Under the pieces are notes generated by a model. It had not been told where the DNA came from, made no database searches, and was given only the letters and a program-made list of their open reading frames with translations. Shown one piece after another: positions 36,600 to 44,659 of a stretch of 64,000 nt of DNA. The first letter of the stretch is position 1, and each line of letters starts with the position of its first letter. This DNA comes from Oecophyllibacter saccharovorans (GTDB taxonomy: Bacteria > Pseudomonadota > Alphaproteobacteria > Acetobacterales > Acetobacteraceae): the NCBI RefSeq assembly GCF_006542375.1, contig NZ_CP038143.1, positions 1,674,001 through 1,738,000 on the forward strand, given 5' to 3'. A program made the position numbers and the translations under genes.

Positions 36600-37145
36600 T
36601 CAGGCTTCGCCGGCGGGCTCGGGGAAATTCTGGGCCCGTTTTGCCTGCCACATCGCCACGAAGTCGATGGGCTGCAGCACGATGGGGGGGAAGCCGCCTT
36701 CACGCGTGACATCGCTGATGATGGAACGCGCATAGGGGAAGAGAAGGCGCGGCACTTCCACCAGGAGAATCGGTTCCACCGCTTCGGCAGGCGGGTTGTC
36801 GAGGGTGACGATGGCGGCGTAGTTCAGCTCAGCGATGAAGACCACCCGGCCCGGCTCCGGCTTTTCCTCGGTAGGGGCTTCAACGGCTTCAGCGCGGATG
36901 ATCAGCGCCACTTCATAAACCTGCTGGTCCTGCTGCAGGCGATTGGCCTGGACGTCGATATTGACGCCGACCTGCGGGGGCGTGCGTAGGGTTGCGAACG
37001 TATTGGCGCCCTGGGGGACCTCGAAGGAGAGATCGCGCAGGTACTGCAGGTTGATGGCCACCGGCATGCCGGGAGGGGCGTTCTGCTCGGGCGCGTTCTG
37101 CGCGTCAGTGGGCTGGGCGGGGGGCGTTTGATCGGTATCAGCCAT
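36600..37145 (-). CDS. secB: Protein-export chaperone SecB
   Basis: SecB holds presecretory proteins unfolded and passes them to SecA. The protein has 181 residues. After a Pro/Gln/Asn-rich acidic tail of about 28 residues come the family motifs INLQYLRDLSFEVPQGANTF, VNIDVQANRLQ, YEVALIIRAEA, FIAELNYAAIV and LLVEVPRLLFPYARSIISDV. The segment EGGFPPIVLQPIDFVAMW is the classic C-terminal SecB signature. The start is preceded by AGAAAGG. It is divergent from the Tim44-domain gene across a 336-base structured intergenic region. Confidence 0.96.
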   Translation of the reverse strand: MADTDQTPPAQPTDAQNAPEQNAPPGMPVAINLQYLRDLSFEVPQGANTFATLRTPPQVGVNIDVQANRLQQDQQVYEVALIIRAEAVEAPTEEKPEPGRVVFIAELNYAAIVTLDNPPAEAVEPILLVEVPRLLFPYARSIISDVTREGGFPPIVLQPIDFVAMWQAKRAQNFPEPAGEA

Positions 37146-37440: not shown

Positions 37441-37481
37441 GCTCTTAAGCTCTCTAACAGGCCGCAGGGCAGGCGGTGAAG

Positions 37482-38225
37482 ATGGATGGCGCTCAGGCGC
37501 ATGAGGAATTACTGGAACGCATGATGGCTCATATTCCCTGGGAAACCGTAACCTGGGCGGTAGTGGCGGTGGCGCTTGCCACAGCGCTTTACTGCGTGCT
37601 GGGCCGCAAGGTCGGCGCGCAGGGCGTGCGCCAGCCCCCGCGTCCTGCAGCGCCCAAAGCGGCTGCAGCTCTGCAGCGTGCCCCCCTCCAGCCGCCGCCG
37701 CTGCCCGGGAAGATGGAAAACGCTGAAAAGCCGACGCAATATGTTGTGGCGCCCGAGGCCCGGCCCTTGCTCTCGCAGGTGAGCGCTGCGGTGCCCGGAT
37801 TCACGTCGGAAGGGTTTCTGCACCAGGTCAACACGCTGTTCCGTGAAGTGCTGAGCGCCTATGTGCGCGGCGACAAAAACTTTCTGGCAGCCCATCTGAC
37901 ACCTGCTGTCATGGCGAGTTTCACCCAGGCGATGGACCGCGTGGCGCGTGAAGGCCTGAAGCTTCATGCCACTATCCGCCGCATTGAGCGCATTGCGCTG
38001 AACCGCGTGACCCTTCTGCCCGATACCGAAGACCCGGCTGCCATGATGTGCCGCCTCACGGTCGCCATAACTTCCTGGCAGCTGAGCTATGTCACCGATG
38101 CTTCAGGCACTGTGGTGGAAGGTACTGAAGCCCTGACGGAATTTCATGATCTGTGGGACCTGACCCACATGCCGGGTGCTGAAGGCGCTTCCGTCTGGCG
38201 CCTCTCGGGAACAGCCACCACCTGA
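37482..38225 (+). CDS. Tim44-domain membrane protein (TimA-like)
   Basis: The protein has 247 residues from the ATG at 37482, or 249 from a GTG two codons earlier. A single transmembrane segment (VTWAVVAVALATALYCVLG, about residues 22-40) is followed by a Pro/Ala-rich linker. A Tim44-like domain starts near residue 105 (FTSEGFLHQVNTLFREVLSA, then YVRGDKNFLAAHLTPAVMAS, MCRLTVAITSWQLSYVTDAS and TEFHDLWDLTHMP). This N-anchor plus Tim44 layout is that of alphaproteobacterial TimA, which commonly lies next to secB and mltA. It is the first gene of a rightward series with mltA, a DNA methyltransferase and smr. The paralogue at 12249 has a longer spacer. Confidence 0.85.
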   Translation: MDGAQAHEELLERMMAHIPWETVTWAVVAVALATALYCVLGRKVGAQGVRQPPRPAAPKAAAALQRAPLQPPPLPGKMENAEKPTQYVVAPEARPLLSQVSAAVPGFTSEGFLHQVNTLFREVLSAYVRGDKNFLAAHLTPAVMASFTQAMDRVAREGLKLHATIRRIERIALNRVTLLPDTEDPAAMMCRLTVAITSWQLSYVTDASGTVVEGTEALTEFHDLWDLTHMPGAEGASVWRLSGTATT

Positions 38226-38276: not shown

Positions 38277-39653
38277 ATGAAGAGAGCGGGTGAAAAAGAG
38301 ATCAGGATGAGAAAGAGACCTGAAAACCGTGCCGCGGGAACGCCCTCTATAGCGGGCTCAGTGCTGGCCTGGGGGCTGGTGCTGGGTGCCGGGGGGTTGG
38401 GCCTGGGCGGCTGCACGGACTCTGACACCCGTCCCCCCGCTGAAATCACGGCGCGCCCCACCAGCTGGACGGCCCTTGCCGGGCTGGAAGGTGAAAACTG
38501 GCGCGGGGTCATGGCCGGGCTTGAGCAGCAGTGCCGCCATCTTGCCACCCTGCCGCCCAATGCCGCGCTGGGCGGCGTACCTTCCCTCCCTTACGGCCGC
38601 CTGAACGCTGATTGGGCCGGGGCATGTGCCGCCCTGCCCATGGCTGGCAGCGACGGGACGGTCATCCGCAATTATGTCCAGCGCTGGTTCCAGCCTTACG
38701 TGCTGACAGACCGCGCCCTGCTGACGGGCTATTACGAGCCGCAGGTCGCCGCTTCCCTGACGCGCCAGGACGCTTTTCAGGTGCCGGTCTACCGCCGCCC
38801 GCCCGATCTGCAGCGCGCGCGGATGACGAACGGGCAGAGTGTTTTCGGGCGGTGGCAGGGACCGGCCTTTGTGCCCTATGACAGCCGGGCCATGATCGAT
38901 GCGGGTTCGCTGGCGGGTAAGGGCCTGGAACTGGCCTGGGTCAGGGACCCGGTCGACCTCTTCTTTCTGCAGATCCAGGGGTCGGGGCGGCTCGTTCTGG
39001 CAGATGGCACGACGATCCGCGTCGGCTATGACGGCAAGAACGGCCAGCCTTACGTGCCGATCGGTCGCGTTCTGGAGCGCAGGGGGGCGCTGGCACGCAA
39101 CGCGGTGAATGCCGATACCATCCGGGCCTGGCTTGCTGCCCATCCGCAGGAAGTGCGCGGTGTGCTTGAAAGCAATCCGAGCTACGTCTTCTTCCGTCTT
39201 CTCTCCGACCCGCCCCCTGTCCCTGCGCAGGCGGGTGGTGGAGTCAATGAAGCCATCGGCGAGACGGACGAGCCGGAGGAAGGGGAAGACCGTCCCGCTT
39301 CCGGTCCTGGCCGCATCCCGCGCATTACTGTCCCGGCCGCGGCTGAAGAAGGGTCTCCAGGGGCCTTCGGGGTGCCGCTGACGGCCGGGCGCTCCATGGC
39401 GATTGATCGGCGTTACGTGCCCTTCGCAGCGCCTGTATGGGTGGAAACGCAGGTGCCTGACCCGCGCACGGGCGGCCTGACCCCCTGGCGCCACATCGTG
39501 TTCGCCCAGGATACGGGGACCGATATCCGCGGGCCCGGGCGCGCAGACCTGTTCATGGGTCATGGCCCCCTGGCGCCGTGGATTGCGGGGCACCTGAGGA
39601 GTGCAGGGCGCATGGTGGTGCTGGTGCCCCTGCCACCCGCACGCCCGCAATAA
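38277..39653 (+). CDS. mltA: Membrane-bound lytic murein transglycosylase A
   Basis: MltA cleaves peptidoglycan with formation of 1,6-anhydromuramic ends. The protein has 458 residues from ATG 38277; ATG 38307 (MRKRPENRAAG) is a good alternative. A lipoprotein signal ends in the lipobox LGLGGC, so it is probably outer-membrane anchored. The MltA domain shows LLTGYYEPQVAASLTRQDAF, VPYDSRAMIDAGSL, VDLFFLQIQGSGRLVL and GYDGKNGQPYVPIGR. The 3D domain with the catalytic aspartate is near AQDTGTDIRGPGRADLFMG. A Glu/Pro-rich insertion (DEPEEGEDRPASGPG) is unusual. It lies 51 bases behind the Tim44-domain gene. Confidence 0.94.
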   Translation: MKRAGEKEIRMRKRPENRAAGTPSIAGSVLAWGLVLGAGGLGLGGCTDSDTRPPAEITARPTSWTALAGLEGENWRGVMAGLEQQCRHLATLPPNAALGGVPSLPYGRLNADWAGACAALPMAGSDGTVIRNYVQRWFQPYVLTDRALLTGYYEPQVAASLTRQDAFQVPVYRRPPDLQRARMTNGQSVFGRWQGPAFVPYDSRAMIDAGSLAGKGLELAWVRDPVDLFFLQIQGSGRLVLADGTTIRVGYDGKNGQPYVPIGRVLERRGALARNAVNADTIRAWLAAHPQEVRGVLESNPSYVFFRLLSDPPPVPAQAGGGVNEAIGETDEPEEGEDRPASGPGRIPRITVPAAAEEGSPGAFGVPLTAGRSMAIDRRYVPFAAPVWVETQVPDPRTGGLTPWRHIVFAQDTGTDIRGPGRADLFMGHGPLAPWIAGHLRSAGRMVVLVPLPPARPQ

Positions 39654-39721
39654 CTTCCGTGCTGGCCAAAGCTGCCGCTGCGCCCGGGGGCGCGGACAGG
39701 GTTCTGCGCGCCCGCAGGGAG

Positions 39722-40513
39722 ATGGTGGGGCGTCACACGCTGATCCGCGGCGATTGCGCGCGGGTCCTCAAGCGCCTGCCGCCAGGCAGCGTGGATGTGG
39801 TCGTCACTTCCCCGCCCTATAATCTGGGCCTGGCCTATAACAGCTACCGCGACCGGCGGTCTGAGGCGGATTATCTCGACTGGCTGGTGGGCATCTGCCG
39901 GCTTTTAAGCCAGGCCCTGCATGAGGAGGGATCGTTTTTCCTCAATATCGCCGGCTCTTCCGCCCAGCCCTGGCTGCCTTTCGAGCTGATGGTGCGCCTG
40001 CGGGAGTTCTTTGTGCTGCAGAATCACATCATCTGGGTGAAATCCATCTCTGTGGGCGCGGTGACGCACGGGCATTTCAAGCCGGTTAATTCCAGGCGTT
40101 TCGTCAACCGCAACCATGAGCATGTTTTCCACCTGACCCGTCATGGCCAGGTCTCCCTGGCGCGGCTGGAAGCAGGCGTGCCCTTTACCGACAAGAGCAA
40201 TATCGCCCGCCGCAACCATGGCCAGGACCGCCGCTGCCGGGGCGATACCTGGTTCATTCCTTATGAAACCGTGCACAGCCGGGCCGGCAAGTTCAGCCAT
40301 CCCGGCACGTTTCCCGTCGCCCTGCCGGAAGCCTGCCTGAAACTGCACGGCCTCCGGGAGGACCTGGTGGTGCTGGACCCCTTCATGGGCACCGGCACCA
40401 CCCTGGTTGCAGCCCAGAAGCTGGGCGCACGCGGGATCGGCATTGAAGCCGATACGGGCTATGTCCGTATCGCGCGCGAGCGCCTGCGCCAGTGTGGGGC
40501 AGGGGCACAGTGA
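39722..40513 (+). CDS. Orphan site-specific DNA methyltransferase (beta-class, N4-cytosine or N6-adenine)
   Basis: This is a DNA methyltransferase of 263 residues in the N6_N4 family. The order is catalytic motif IV VVTSPPYNLGLAYNSY (near residue 30) before SAM motif I VVLDPFMGTGTTLVAAQKLG (near residue 220), i.e. beta-class. TSPPY rather than DPPY is more typical of N4-cytosine enzymes, so it is probably not CcrM. Further marks are HIIWVKSISVG, NRNHEHVFHLT and SHPGTFPVALPEACLKLHG. I chose the ATG at 39722, which follows GCAGGGAG; an in-frame GTG at 39659 lacks an SD. No restriction gene is adjacent. Its TGA overlaps the smr ATG (TGATG). Confidence 0.87.
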   Translation: MVGRHTLIRGDCARVLKRLPPGSVDVVVTSPPYNLGLAYNSYRDRRSEADYLDWLVGICRLLSQALHEEGSFFLNIAGSSAQPWLPFELMVRLREFFVLQNHIIWVKSISVGAVTHGHFKPVNSRRFVNRNHEHVFHLTRHGQVSLARLEAGVPFTDKSNIARRNHGQDRRCRGDTWFIPYETVHSRAGKFSHPGTFPVALPEACLKLHGLREDLVVLDPFMGTGTTLVAAQKLGARGIGIEADTGYVRIARERLRQCGAGAQ

Positions 40514-41151
40514 TGGCACGTGCCCCAAGAACGCTGCACGAAGAAGAAAAGGCCCTCTGGCAGGCGGTTGCCCGCACTGTGAAGCCTCTTGCAGGCCGCA
40601 GCCCCTCTGAATCTCCTACACCTGAGCCTCTCGCGGCTTCCCCTGTCGACCACTCTTCACCTGCTCCTGTACGCGCCAAACCTGCCCGCCAATCCGTGCC
40701 GCTTGCCAGGGAGCGACCGGGCCCTGTGCAGGAGGCGGACCTGTTCCGGCAGTTTCTGAGCGGAGGTGGGAACGCCACCGGACCTGCAAGGCCCTCAACC
40801 GGCGCGCACGATCTCTATGTCGGCGCCCGTGCGCCCGGGCTGGATACGACCCAGTGGCGGCGGCTGACACGCGGCAGGATGGCGCTGGACGGGCGGCTGG
40901 ACCTGCACGGCTACGTCGTTCAGGAAGCCTTCGAGCTCTTCCTGGCTTTCATGGCGCGGGCACGGCGCATGAACTGGCGGTGCGTGGAAATCGTCACCGG
41001 GATGGGGAGCGGGCCGGAAGGGGGGGCGATTCGGCGGGAGCTGCGCCACTGGCTGCAGCGCGGTGAAATACGCCCTTCCGTGCTGGCTGTCGTTCACCCC
41101 CATGCCGCCAACCAGGGAGCTGTGAGGATTCTGCTGCGCCGCAAGCGCTGA
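40513..41151 (+). CDS. Smr-domain protein
   Basis: The protein has 212 residues from the ATG at 40513. The C-terminal 85 residues form an Smr (small MutS-related) domain: RGRMALDGRLDLHGYVVQEA with the D-L-H-G motif, FLAFMARARRMNWRCVEIVT, then GMGSGPEGGAIRRELRHWLQ and VLAVVHPHAANQGAVRILL. Smr domains are DNA- or RNA-binding, often with nicking activity. The first 120 residues are Pro/Ser/Ala rich and contain EEKALWQAVARTVKPLAGR, the usual N-terminal helix of alphaproteobacterial Smr proteins. Translation is probably coupled to the DNA methyltransferase. The function is unknown. Confidence 0.88.
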   Translation: MARAPRTLHEEEKALWQAVARTVKPLAGRSPSESPTPEPLAASPVDHSSPAPVRAKPARQSVPLARERPGPVQEADLFRQFLSGGGNATGPARPSTGAHDLYVGARAPGLDTTQWRRLTRGRMALDGRLDLHGYVVQEAFELFLAFMARARRMNWRCVEIVTGMGSGPEGGAIRRELRHWLQRGEIRPSVLAVVHPHAANQGAVRILLRRKR

Positions 41152-41436: not shown

Positions 41437-42630
41437 GTGAGACTGGACACGGCTTTGCGCGCTTTGAAGCGCGCCTGTCTGCTGGCGGGCGGGAGCCTGG
41501 TGCTGGCTCTGGGGGCGGCGTGGCTGCCGAACTCCTGGGGGCTTTCCTCCCTTTCTGCGTCCCTCATCAAGGCAGCCGGCGCGCGGGAAGTGACCGATAT
41601 TCTCGGCCGCCACGTGACAGTGCCCGACCATCCCAAACGCATCGTGCTGGGCGAGGGGCGGCTGATTTATGCCCTGCAGCCGCTGGAGGGGGATAATCCC
41701 TTCAGCCGGGTGGTGGGCTGGCAGGGTGAATTCCGCACGGCTGATACCCAGAATTATGACGAGCTCCGCAAACGCCATCCGGAAGCCGAGCAGGTCGCGG
41801 TTATCGGGCGCACTTCCGCTGACACGATCAGCCCTGAAAAAGTGCTCGACCTGCATCCGGACCTGGCCGTTTTCAGCACTTCCGGCCATGGGCCAGGTCA
41901 GTCGAGCGCGGTGACGCAGCGCCTGGAATCTGCGCATATTCCGGTTATTTTTGTCGATTTCCGCGCTGATCCCGTGGCCCATACAGTGCCCAGCATGCAC
42001 ATTCTGGGCCAGGCGCTTGACCGCCCGCAGGAAGCGAAGGCCTATACCGATTTCTATCAGTCGCGCCTGGATCTCATCCAGCAGGCCACTTCCCGCGTGC
42101 CTGCAGAGAAGCGCCCGACCGTGTTCATCGACATGCTGGCCGGAACGCGCAGCTGCTGCCACACGGCGGGCAAGGGCAACATGGGCGCTTTCATCGAGGC
42201 AGCCGGCGGCCGCAACATCGCAGCGCCCCTGCTGCCGGGTTTTCTGGGGGAGGTCTCAGCTGAAACCCTGATCACCCGCAATCCCGACGTGCTGATCCTC
42301 GACGGCACGCGGGGGCCGGGCCACACCGGGCCCGGGCTGAAGCTGGGCGCGCAGGTGACGCCAGCTGTGGCACGCCAGTCGCTTGACAGCCTGCTCCAGG
42401 CACCGGAACTTTCAGAGCTCAAGGCTGTCAGGTCAGGGCGCAGCTACGGGTTGTGGCACTCCTTTTATGACAGTCCTTTCAACATTCTGGCCATTGAAGC
42501 CATGGCGAAGTGGTTTTATCCCGGTCTCCTGCCTGACCTCAATCCAGAGGCCGACCTGCATGAGATCAGCACGCGCTTTCACGGTCTGCCGGCAAGCGGC
42601 ACTTACTGGACCGCTGCCGGTGCGCCCTGA
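41437..42630 (+). CDS. Iron/siderophore ABC transporter substrate-binding protein (GTG start)
   Basis: This is a periplasmic class III (FecB/FepB-like) binding protein of 397 residues for a ferric complex. The start is GTG at 41437 with SD GAGGAGAG six bases upstream. An N-terminal signal-like segment (ACLLAGGSLVLALGAAW, no lipobox) precedes the two lobes. The family opening is EVTDILGRHVTVPDHPKRIV; later come ISPEKVLDLHPDLAVFST, IPVIFVDF, a conserved SCCHTAGKGNMGAFIEAAGG segment with an odd paired cysteine, and LITRNPDVLILDG. The permease and ATPase follow. The exact ligand is unknown. Confidence 0.87.
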   Translation: MRLDTALRALKRACLLAGGSLVLALGAAWLPNSWGLSSLSASLIKAAGAREVTDILGRHVTVPDHPKRIVLGEGRLIYALQPLEGDNPFSRVVGWQGEFRTADTQNYDELRKRHPEAEQVAVIGRTSADTISPEKVLDLHPDLAVFSTSGHGPGQSSAVTQRLESAHIPVIFVDFRADPVAHTVPSMHILGQALDRPQEAKAYTDFYQSRLDLIQQATSRVPAEKRPTVFIDMLAGTRSCCHTAGKGNMGAFIEAAGGRNIAAPLLPGFLGEVSAETLITRNPDVLILDGTRGPGHTGPGLKLGAQVTPAVARQSLDSLLQAPELSELKAVRSGRSYGLWHSFYDSPFNILAIEAMAKWFYPGLLPDLNPEADLHEISTRFHGLPASGTYWTAAGAP

Positions 42631-42671
42631 GGCCAGGAGGGCGTTCATGAAGCCGAGGGGGAGAGCCGTCC

Positions 42672-43754
42672 ATGTCGCCTGACCCTGACATGCCGCCTGC
42701 CCCTGTCATAGATGTGAAGGGCATGGACGTGCAGGGAATGCATACCGCTTACCGCCGGTTGCACCGCCGCCGCATGGCGGTGCTGGCGGTGCTGGGCGTG
42801 CTGATCTGCCTTTCCCTTCTGCTGGACTTCTCTCTCGGCCCGGCCGGGCTGACGCCGGTGCAGCTGTGGCATGCGTTGTGGCACCCGGGCGCGGGGACCG
42901 CTTCTATCATCGTCTGGCATATCCGCCTGCCTTACGCGCTGATGGCCCTGCTCGTGGGCATCGCCCTGAGCGCTTCAGGCGCTGAGATGCAGACCATTCT
43001 GGACAATCCGCTGGCCAGTCCCTTTACCCTGGGGGTGTCAGCTGCCGCGGCCTTCGGCGCTTCCCTGGCCATCGTGCTGGACTGGCGGCTGCCTTACGTC
43101 CCCGAAGACTGGATGATACCGTTCGAGGCCTTTCTCTTTGCCGTCGGCTCAGCCCTGCTGCTGGAGCTGGTGTCACGCCTGCGCGGCCATTCCACCTCCA
43201 TGGTCGTTCTGTTCGGCATCGCCCTGGTGTTCACGTTCCAGGCGCTCGTCTCGCTCATGCAGTTCATCGCTGATGAAGATGCCCTGCAGGAGCTGGTCTT
43301 CTGGACGATGGGCAGCCTGACGCGCGCCGACTGGCCCAAGATCACTGTCCTGGCGCTGGGCTGCGCCATCGTGCTGCCGTTCAGCTGGCGCGCAGCGCCG
43401 GCCCTGACCGCGCTGCGGCTGGGCGAGGACCGGGCGGCAAGCTACGGTGTGAACATCCGCCACCTGCGGATCTGGGCGCTGCTGCGCATCAGCATCCTTT
43501 CGGCCCTGGCGGTCTCGTTTGTCGGCACGATCGGTTTTGTGGGCCTGGTCGCTCCCCATATCGCCCGCCGCCTGGTGGGCGAGGACCACCGTTTCTACCT
43601 GCCGGCTGCAGCCCTTTGCGGCGGGCTGATCCTCTCGCTCGCTTCCATCGCCGCCAAAAATCTCCTGCCGGGCGTGGTGATCCCGATCGGCATCGTGACA
43701 GCCCTGGTGGGCATTCCCTTCTTTCTGGCCATCGTGCTCAAGAGGCGCATATGA
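42672..43754 (+). CDS. FecCD/BtuC family iron ABC transporter permease
   Basis: This is an inner-membrane permease of 360 residues with about 10 helices, forming the homodimeric channel for a ferri-siderophore or related chelate. The hallmarks are IIVWHIRLPYALMALLVGIA, LSASGAEMQTILDNPLASPF, TLGVSAAAAFGASLAIVL, TMGSLTRADW and the C-terminal IGFVGLVAPHIARRLVGEDH. The first 30 residues are an acidic/Met-rich extension (a start at 42723 is possible). Its TGA overlaps the ATPase ATG (ATGA). Confidence 0.95.
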   Translation: MSPDPDMPPAPVIDVKGMDVQGMHTAYRRLHRRRMAVLAVLGVLICLSLLLDFSLGPAGLTPVQLWHALWHPGAGTASIIVWHIRLPYALMALLVGIALSASGAEMQTILDNPLASPFTLGVSAAAAFGASLAIVLDWRLPYVPEDWMIPFEAFLFAVGSALLLELVSRLRGHSTSMVVLFGIALVFTFQALVSLMQFIADEDALQELVFWTMGSLTRADWPKITVLALGCAIVLPFSWRAAPALTALRLGEDRAASYGVNIRHLRIWALLRISILSALAVSFVGTIGFVGLVAPHIARRLVGEDHRFYLPAAALCGGLILSLASIAAKNLLPGVVIPIGIVTALVGIPFFLAIVLKRRI

Positions 43755-44659
43755 CCCTGGTGCAGCCCGCAGCTTCTGACATTTCTTCCGCCCCCCATGG
43801 GCAACAGGGAGAAGAAGGGGCCCTGAAAGTCAGCCATCTCAACGTTGCCTATGGGCGCAGGACCGTCATTCCCGATCTCACGCTGGCGCCGCTGCAGCCA
43901 GGGCAGGTGACGGCTCTGCTGGGCCCCAACGGTTCGGGAAAATCAACCTTCCTGCGCGCTGTCGCCGGTCTGACGCCAAGCCGCGTCCTGCAGGACAAGG
44001 GGAGTGAGGGCGGCATCTGGCTGGGGCGTGCCTGCCTGTCGAACATGAATTCTGCCGAGCGTGCGAAACTGAGCGCCTACCTGCCACAGGCTCTGCCGCC
44101 TGCCGTGCACCTGCAGGTGCTGGAGGCGGTCATGGTCGCACGCCGGGCAGGCACGCCGATGGGGGCCGAGCAGGCCCTGGCTGAAAGCGTGGCGATGCTG
44201 GAGCGGCTGGGCATTGCCGATCTGGCGCTGCGCTACCTTGACGAGCTTTCGGGCGGCCAGCGCCAGCTAGTCGGGCTGGCGCAGGCCCTGGTGAGAAAGC
44301 CTGACCTGCTGCTGCTTGACGAGCCATTGAGCGCGCTGGACCTGCGCCACCAGGTTGCGGTGATGGAGGCGGTCCGCCAGCAGACCCGGGAGCGCAACAT
44401 GGTGACGCTGCTGGTCGTGCATGACCTCAACATCGCCCTGCAGCGCGCCGATGACGTGGTTTTCCTCAAGGACGGCCAGTGCGTGGCCCAGGGGAAGGCA
44501 CAGGAAGTGACCACGCCTGAAGTGCTGGCCAAGGTCTACGGCGTGCAGGCCCGCCTGGAAGTATGCGGCCAGGGCAGGCCGCATGTGCTCGTCGACGGTC
44601 TGGCTGAAAATGCCCCTGCCAGCCTGGTCGCGCCAGGGCCTGGGAAAGCGGAAAACTGA
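43751..44659 (+). CDS. Iron ABC transporter ATP-binding protein
   Basis: This is the ATPase of the importer, 302 residues from the ATG at 43751. The motifs are Walker A LLGPNGSGKSTFLRAVAG, the signature ELSGGQRQLVGLAQAL, Walker B LLLLDEPLSALD and the His switch LLVVHDLNIALQRADD. It has a 25-residue N-terminal lead and a 40-residue C-terminal tail beyond the ATPase core, the latter including VLAKVYGVQARLEVCGQG, which is usual in FecE/FhuC relatives. Coupled translation with the permease is likely. It ends the Fur-boxed operon. Confidence 0.95.
   Translation: MTLVQPAASDISSAPHGQQGEEGALKVSHLNVAYGRRTVIPDLTLAPLQPGQVTALLGPNGSGKSTFLRAVAGLTPSRVLQDKGSEGGIWLGRACLSNMNSAERAKLSAYLPQALPPAVHLQVLEAVMVARRAGTPMGAEQALAESVAMLERLGIADLALRYLDELSGGQRQLVGLAQALVRKPDLLLLDEPLSALDLRHQVAVMEAVRQQTRERNMVTLLVVHDLNIALQRADDVVFLKDGQCVAQGKAQEVTTPEVLAKVYGVQARLEVCGQGRPHVLVDGLAENAPASLVAPGPGKAEN

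Follow-up and report, generated by a model that had tools for sequence, protein, structure and literature searches.

CcrM, the GANTC enzyme of Alphaproteobacteria, is an orphan DNA methyltransferase of the beta class. Alphaproteobacterial origins of replication can adjoin hemE, as in Caulobacter, and the DnaA box reads TTATNCACA. Orphan methyltransferases whose motif is clustered at origins have been described: the origin-cluster section of Blow et al. (2016, PMC4752239) presents four of them, and the clustered motifs given there include GATC for Dam, TTAA in Arthrobacter and CTCGAG in Nocardia, together with an N4-methylcytosine (m4C) motif at the origins of Haloarchaea that is printed as CATG in the text and as CTAG in the legend. 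In restriction-modification (RM), M.RsaI makes m4C in GTAC, 87.65% of the motifs being detected (PMC6256690). We describe here that, in acetic acid bacteria, an origin packed with GTAC tracks an orphan methyltransferase (MTase). We consider it likely that this enzyme is a domesticated orphan of the RsaI type that makes m4C at GTAC and marks the state of the origin, and that the Smr-domain protein encoded behind it is no part of the system.

The window, a stretch of 64,000 nucleotides of the Oecophyllibacter saccharovorans genome, holds the MTase gene in the following setting:

36600..37145, minus strand: secB, a conserved marker of the locus
37476..38225, plus strand: Tim44/TimA-like gene, a conserved marker of the locus
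38277..39653, plus strand: mltA (murein transglycosylase A), the usual upstream neighbour of the MTase gene
39722..40513, plus strand: MTase gene, 263 aa, from the ORF and Pfam N6_N4_Mtase
39806..39820, plus strand: TSPPY catalytic motif, residues 29-33, unchanged across an alignment of 17 orthologues
40052..40291, plus strand: presumed target-recognition region of the MTase, residues 111-190
40511..40515, plus strand: TGATG overlap of the MTase stop (TGA, 40511-40513) and the smr start (ATG, 40513-40515)
40513..41151, plus strand: smr, Smr-domain protein with an LDLHG motif, 212 aa, apparently an ancestral neighbour of mltA

Pfam identifies HemD, SecB, Tim44 and MltA upstream of the MTase and a periplasmic binding protein downstream; for these tested neighbours, the original prediction of an orphan MTase with no adjacent endonuclease holds. 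The region 3′ of smr (41437-44659) reads as an iron/siderophore uptake set composed of a binding protein, a permease and an ATPase, in which Pfam was run on the binding protein only.

The MTase scores 144.8 bits against Pfam N6_N4_Mtase (cut-off 26.7), and a DPFMGTGT motif near its C-terminus, downstream of TSPPY, gives the motif order of the beta class, from which we take residues 111-190 to lie between motifs VIII and X. The start of the gene is uncertain between 39722 and an in-frame GTG at 39659, 63 bases upstream; a homologue carries the residues MIRARREN just upstream of the position matching 39722, and the true start may be the upstream GTG. The genome to which the window belongs (G000; 1.94 Mb, two contigs) has two PF01555 genes, namely the window MTase and a CcrM-like gene at C1:383672, which matches the CcrM equivalog along its entire length with 607.8 bits but stays short of the cut-off of 830. 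The window MTase itself reaches 79.2 of the 830 bits needed, which rules out CcrM identity, as had been anticipated. Cytosine N4, likewise proposed at the outset, is still a better guess than adenine as the methylated position, in view of TSPPY, the kinship with RsaI-type systems and the m4C product of M.RsaI (PMC6256690).

Likeness to the RsaI system was drawn through viral relatives rather than from the M.RsaI protein. Phages Syn19 and ACG-2014j encode MTases that are 45-47% identical to that of the window, each from a gene overlapping one annotated as R.RsaI by its depositors, and the three MTases share the same best PADLOC model, PDLC03295. Of 80 viral loci of the MTase family, 36 have an RsaI-type restriction endonuclease (REase) gene next to the MTase ORF or overlapping it, as detected with a profile grown from the Syn19 and ACG-2014j endonucleases; the 80 loci correspond to 60 distinct MTases, 31 with an REase, and many of the contigs end near the gene. 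Seven viral MTases beside RsaI-type REases are 45-58% identical to the window enzyme, and the REase-paired relatives include ones at 57, 54 and 48%. Within the Acetobacteraceae, one genome (G041) carries an RsaI-type RM pair away from mltA (L237:2935-4588) that is missed by the PADLOC REase model. In the MTase tree, the enzymes linked to mltA/Tim44 form one supported group (SH-aLRT 99), which also takes in a viral enzyme and an Acetobacteraceae enzyme encoded at another place, and the REase-paired MTases branch just outside it. The window MTase is, by this comparison with viral relatives, a member of a family of MTases that adjoin RsaI-type REases.

The presumed recognition region of the window MTase is 62, 58 and 56% identical to those of three REase-adjoining viral relatives (L146, L147 and L151, respectively), at least as much as either catalytic part (54, 48 and 42% for the N-terminal part; 58, 57 and 54% for the C-terminal part). 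In cyanophage enzymes of the R.RsaI-labelled kind (L113, L116 and L196), this region is only 40-42% identical to the window's, with 42-44% for the N-terminal part and 54-55% for the C-terminal part. Kinship with REase-paired RsaI-type MTases, combined with the formation of m4C at GTAC by M.RsaI, leads us to infer that this orphan beta-class enzyme belongs to the RsaI-type family and to predict m4C at GTAC as its product. GTAC was then looked for in genomes, before the origin was examined. Avoidance of GTAC was discarded as a specificity test, because GTAC is under expectation with and without the MTase and its genome-wide frequency fails to separate MTase-positive from MTase-negative genomes.

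Several observations bear on the wider family. The cyanophage MTases at L113:2998-3786 and L116:2962-3774 are annotated as DNA adenine methylase (dam), while their TSPPY motif and RsaI-type neighbour suggest m4C, not adenine. A viral MTase that is 60% identical to the window enzyme (L145:2149-2904) lies inside the Acetobacteraceae orphan clade, so phages may have acquired the orphan. Paracoccus plasmid homologues of the MTase have no RsaI-type neighbour among their annotated genes. In four Acetobacteraceae genomes, REase-like genes matching PDLC03550 lie near ORFs that by eye resemble a different MTase (L140, L142, L143 and L144; L141 is incomplete), so that a hit of the REase profile does not by itself tell which MTase is the partner; L143 and L144 appear, again by eye, to hold a second endonuclease-like ORF, and the four may represent another RM arrangement.

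The orphan is conserved across the family, though in under half of it: at E <= 1e-60, 89 of 200 Acetobacteraceae genomes, O. saccharovorans among them, have a match, and none was found outside the family among 385 genomes of the class at E <= 1e-50. It is present in 34 of the 37 chosen genomes that make up the acetic acid bacteria half of the HemE tree. The MTase is under purifying selection, and among five genes compared in the named loci its median dN/dS is the lowest (MTase 0.204, Tim44 0.257, SecB 0.286, MltA 0.317, Smr 0.401); these medians are descriptive, since pairs overlap and differ between genes. One genome, G168, has a second MTase copy, 57% identical (C1:2003444-2004202), with a GTAC triplet (2003290-2003328) at a distance of 116 bases.

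The MTase TGA overlaps the smr ATG, and the coordinates confirm that the reported overlap is a true one, yet adjacency of the two genes is not conserved across the family, as the survey of other genomes proposed originally now indicates. Eighty named loci were kept from 535 relatives, all Acetobacteraceae, of which the closest, at 72-78% identity, belong to Gluconobacter wancherniae, Saccharibacter, Bombella and their kin. A cytochrome c peroxidase (CCP) gene, identified by Pfam in one locus (L110), lies between the MTase gene and smr in 59 of the 80, two of which have two CCP ORFs; six others have the MTase gene and CCP with smr absent from the stretch. The remaining 15 (L034-L048) have no CCP, smr coming next after the MTase gene in the same orientation, and are from Saccharibacter, Bombella, Parasaccharibacter and three Acetobacteraceae records without a genus. 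Since the loci without CCP belong to Saccharibacter/Bombella-type kin, the direct adjacency in the window is consistent with a lost CCP gene, and smr would have come directly behind the MTase gene in this way. Among eight adjacent MTase-smr loci measured to the first in-frame smr start candidates (the window and L004-L010), the stop-start overlap occurs in the window only; smr starts 1-4 bases past the MTase stop in L006, L007, L009 and L010, after 22 bases in L008, and after 70 or more, up to about 109, in L004 and L005. In one further locus, that of Parasaccharibacter apium AS1 (L040:6701-7977), mltA is split into two ORFs, possibly a pseudogene or a sequencing frameshift.

A link between smr and mltA extends further. 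Among 80 class genomes searched outside the family, 54 have both genes, and smr lies within 5 kb after mltA on the same strand in 40 of these and within 1.5 kb in 26. As the two are linked in Alphaproteobacteria without the MTase, this link looks older than the MTase, and MTase-smr adjacency is not independent of it. Within the family, 41 MTase-positive genomes, most of them outside the near relatives of the window, were selected for synteny: of the 34 that have both mltA and the MTase gene among the matches listed, 27 carry the latter immediately after mltA, and smr is within 5 kb downstream of the MTase gene in 16 of the 37 that have both, 19 of which have both on one contig. In 20 MTase-negative family genomes with mltA and smr, the two lie within 5 kb in only two, on opposite strands. 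The Acetobacter named loci have no mltA between Tim44 and the MTase gene, which is still present. Either neighbour can thus come and go while the MTase stays.

The Smr protein scores 53.4 bits against Pfam Smr (cut-off 25.7) and falls below the NCBIfam cut-offs for SmrA (40.3 of 180) and SmrB (26.6 of 128). In SmrB, the DLH residues contribute to the catalytic step by which mRNA is cut where ribosomes have collided (PMC10897456). An initial suggestion that Smr might nick DNA as a partner of the MTase has lost ground, as LDLHG fits an mRNA cleavage of the SmrB kind better, with the reservation that the scores are under both cut-offs. Smr looks like an ancestral neighbour of mltA and a bystander to the MTase system.

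In the O. saccharovorans genome, eight GTAC lie within about 200 bp at C1:902883-903082, adjoining hemE (901736-902764; HemE confirmed by Pfam). GTAC was the sole motif searched genome-wide for clusters, as three GTAC within about 70 bases in 42 genomes; clusters were found, those listed being a lower bound, and four of the seven overlapping triple matches of this genome fall at C1:902883-903082. Elsewhere in the genome, GTAC reaches at most three per 200 bp in 18 sampled stretches of 15 kb, and two in the window. GC skew, followed in this one genome, changes from -0.069 to +0.039 across the cluster; each of the eight 15-kb samples taken below 901 kb has a negative skew (-0.04 to -0.08), and of the ten samples starting at 903.5 kb or higher nine are positive and one, at 1.60 Mb, has -0.003. 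This change of sign places the replication origin at the GTAC cluster. The 270-bp origin core has one copy of TTATNCACA and no GANTC, and two of the eight GTAC sites are DnaA-box-like, reading TTGTACACA, which is close to that box. The flanks of the eight sites are unlike, GTAC alone being common to them. In 27 aligned origins, selected for carrying a cluster, the eight sites are retained in 26, 20, 23, 7, 27, 25, 26 and 26, respectively, and identity is 96% in shared GTAC columns, 67% in other columns and 83% in the two bases on each side.

This cluster in non-coding DNA recurs at orthologous origins. Four MTase-positive genomes (G168, G030, G037 and G061) have a conserved maf-hemE stretch bearing DnaA boxes, with 10-14 GTAC in 400 bp; Maf and URO-D were confirmed by Pfam in L273. 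Of 80 genomes chosen for a comparison at hemE, the gene was located in 78, 47 being MTase-positive and 31 MTase-negative. In the 700 bp preceding hemE, the former average 8.0 GTAC (median 8) and the latter 0.39 (maximum 2), with a Mann-Whitney p of 7e-13 that ignores relatedness, against 0.55 and 0.38 per 700 bp in the rest of the same loci. In a control comparison of all 16 palindromic tetranucleotides before hemE, the 15 others show no like contrast, the largest relative excess in MTase-positive genomes being that of TATA (0.83 vs 0.29). Six or more GTAC precede hemE in 29 of 47 MTase-positive genomes and in none of the 31 MTase-negative ones. Four of the 18 MTase-positive genomes below this number have a cluster displaced by 19.5-26 kb from hemE:

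G032:C21:59534-59699: displaced GTAC cluster
G169:C5:224029-224236: displaced GTAC cluster
G100:C12:42196-42411: displaced GTAC cluster
G157:C22:56628-56843: displaced GTAC cluster

These four genomes are Bombella- or Saccharibacter-like, and the arrangement looks like a local rearrangement in which the cluster was kept with the origin sequence. The 14 others have 1-5 GTAC before hemE; 13 of them lie outside the acetic acid bacteria half of the HemE tree and one (G049) at the base of that half, and in three (G051, G129 and G178) the MTase gene is away from mltA.

When a cluster is taken as at least four GTAC and the four displaced clusters are counted, it is found in 33 of 34 MTase-positive and 0 of 3 MTase-negative genomes of the acetic acid bacteria half of the HemE tree, and in 2 of 13 and 0 of 28, respectively, of the other half. 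The three MTase-negative genomes G066, G029 and G115 are small, nested among positives in the tree, and have 0-1 GTAC before hemE: G066 (L308) has many CTGTGGATAA-type boxes there and no GTAC, and G029 (L340) and G115 (L330) have fewer boxes, with 1 and 0 GTAC. This suggests a single event in which both the enzyme and its sites disappeared. Co-occurrence of MTase and cluster is clear on counts (29/47 vs 0/31), yet the phylogeny-corrected test, an underpowered one with three pairs on supported branches, is not significant (1.6 contrasts the same way and 0.0 opposite on average). The pattern comes down to a single gain and a single joint loss, and phylogenetic independence is weak. GTAC-dense spots away from hemE are seen in some MTase-negative genomes, with 9, 8 and 7 GTAC per 400 bp in G152 (L245), G115 (L260) and G087 (L261), and MTase-negative G150 has 18 GTAC triple matches.

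Other explanations must be weighed against this evidence. The original prediction was of a translationally coupled MTase-Smr unit for methylation-responsive repair or regulation. The TGATG overlap speaks for it, as do the downstream, same-strand smr in 15 of 15 named loci without CCP, four gaps of only 1-4 bases and, among 19 further MTase-positive genomes with both genes on one contig, the 16 in which smr is no more than 5 kb away. However, the linkage is explained by mltA-smr synteny that is older and exists without the MTase (40/54), CCP intervenes in 59 of 80 named loci, L004, L005 and L008 have gaps of between 22 and about 109 bases, the dN/dS of Smr is about twice that of the MTase (0.401 vs 0.204), and SmrB-type proteins act on mRNA (PMC10897456). 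We therefore rejected such a module on synteny in 80 named loci, 64 family genomes and 80 class genomes, and regard the unit as very improbable. An equally slim chance is given to a complete RM system whose endonuclease lies elsewhere in the genome. Viral members of the family adjoin REase genes, and PDLC03550, the REase model, missed the divergent REase of G041 that the grown profile detects, so that a search of this kind can miss one. Against this, the RsaI-type endonuclease profile has no match (E <= 1) in the ORFs of the window or of L001-L112, and the O. saccharovorans genome has no match to PDLC03550, which 4 of 200 family genomes do match, nor to the Syn19 endonuclease in a search run without a positive control. 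The cognate endonuclease on which the original prediction could have failed was thus not found in this genome, within the limited sensitivity of PDLC03550, and recurring synteny and purifying selection also argue for an orphan.

A GTAC methylase could also have been retained for other reasons, such as protection from RsaI-type systems of phages or global transcription, the GTAC cluster at the origin being a set of sites that are bound by an origin protein and contain this tetranucleotide by chance. Such a reading has more in its favour than the two above: viruses carry RsaI-type systems of the same MTase family, the cluster and the MTase coincide mainly on one clade, two of the eight sites are DnaA-box-like TTGTACACA, 14 MTase-positive genomes have no dense cluster at hemE, and the flanks of shared GTAC are themselves fairly conserved (83%). 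We nevertheless hold it to be unlikely, as the eight sites have GTAC alone in common while their flanks differ, GTAC was predicted from RM kinship ahead of any inspection of the origin, both the MTase and the cluster are absent in the nested group of G066, G029 and G115, and the cluster stays with the origin sequence where it is displaced from hemE.

Altogether, we favour a model in which the MTase is a domesticated, largely vertically inherited orphan out of an RsaI-type RM system, which most likely methylates cytosine N4 in GTAC. Given that GTAC is packed in the replication origin, the enzyme probably helps to control the timing of chromosome copying. After passage of the fork, the origin GTAC cluster would be hemimethylated, which should alter the binding of DnaA or of another origin protein, and this altered binding could help to time re-initiation or keep it in check, in analogy to Dam/SeqA. 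A narrower version, to which we lend only tentative credence, is that m4C at GTAC inside DnaA boxes (TTGTACACA) would allow hemimethylated new origins to modulate initiator binding directly, as a bacterial m4C counterpart of Dam/SeqA. If the general model is correct, an m4C-based origin mark would be added in bacteria, and a restriction methylase would be seen becoming a gene of the chromosome cycle, one family displaying the RM relatives, the orphan itself, the origin and the shared disappearance of enzyme and sites. It would also provide a testable regulatory logic for the origin of Gluconobacter, Acetobacter, Komagataeibacter and bee symbionts, a group in wide use, and make a role of m4C outside restriction directly testable with ordinary strains.

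The literature searches, of partial coverage, showed among the papers listed no published GTAC/m4C methylome in Acetobacteraceae and no GTAC at an origin of this family. Comparison with described systems helps to delimit what would be new. The M.RsaI/RsaI system of Rhodobacter blasticus 28/5 (PMC6256690) resembles the window's enzyme through the REase-adjoining viral MTases that are 45-58% identical to it, but the window MTase is chromosomal and usually behind mltA, and no cognate endonuclease was found for it. The Smr protein shares with SmrB and SmrA an Smr domain with an N-terminal extension and LDLHG, and differs in scoring under both NCBIfam cut-offs (40.3/180 and 26.6/128). With respect to CcrM, the O. 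saccharovorans genome also has a CcrM-like gene (607.8 bits), whereas the window MTase is far from the cut-off (79.2 against 830) and GANTC is lacking in the 270-bp origin core. The proposed hemimethylated origin sites after replication recall Dam/SeqA in E. coli (PMC13076061), with the difference that m4C at GTAC is predicted here instead of m6A at GATC. Of the same kind are the cases in the origin-cluster section of PMC4752239, which likewise combine an orphan MTase, a motif cluster in a non-coding origin and a correlation of the cluster with the MTase; none of the bacterial cases described in that section is given as m4C, unlike the prediction made here, and what sets the present system apart from them is its GTAC motif, its occurrence in Acetobacteraceae, an origin beside hemE and a probable descent from RsaI-type enzymes.
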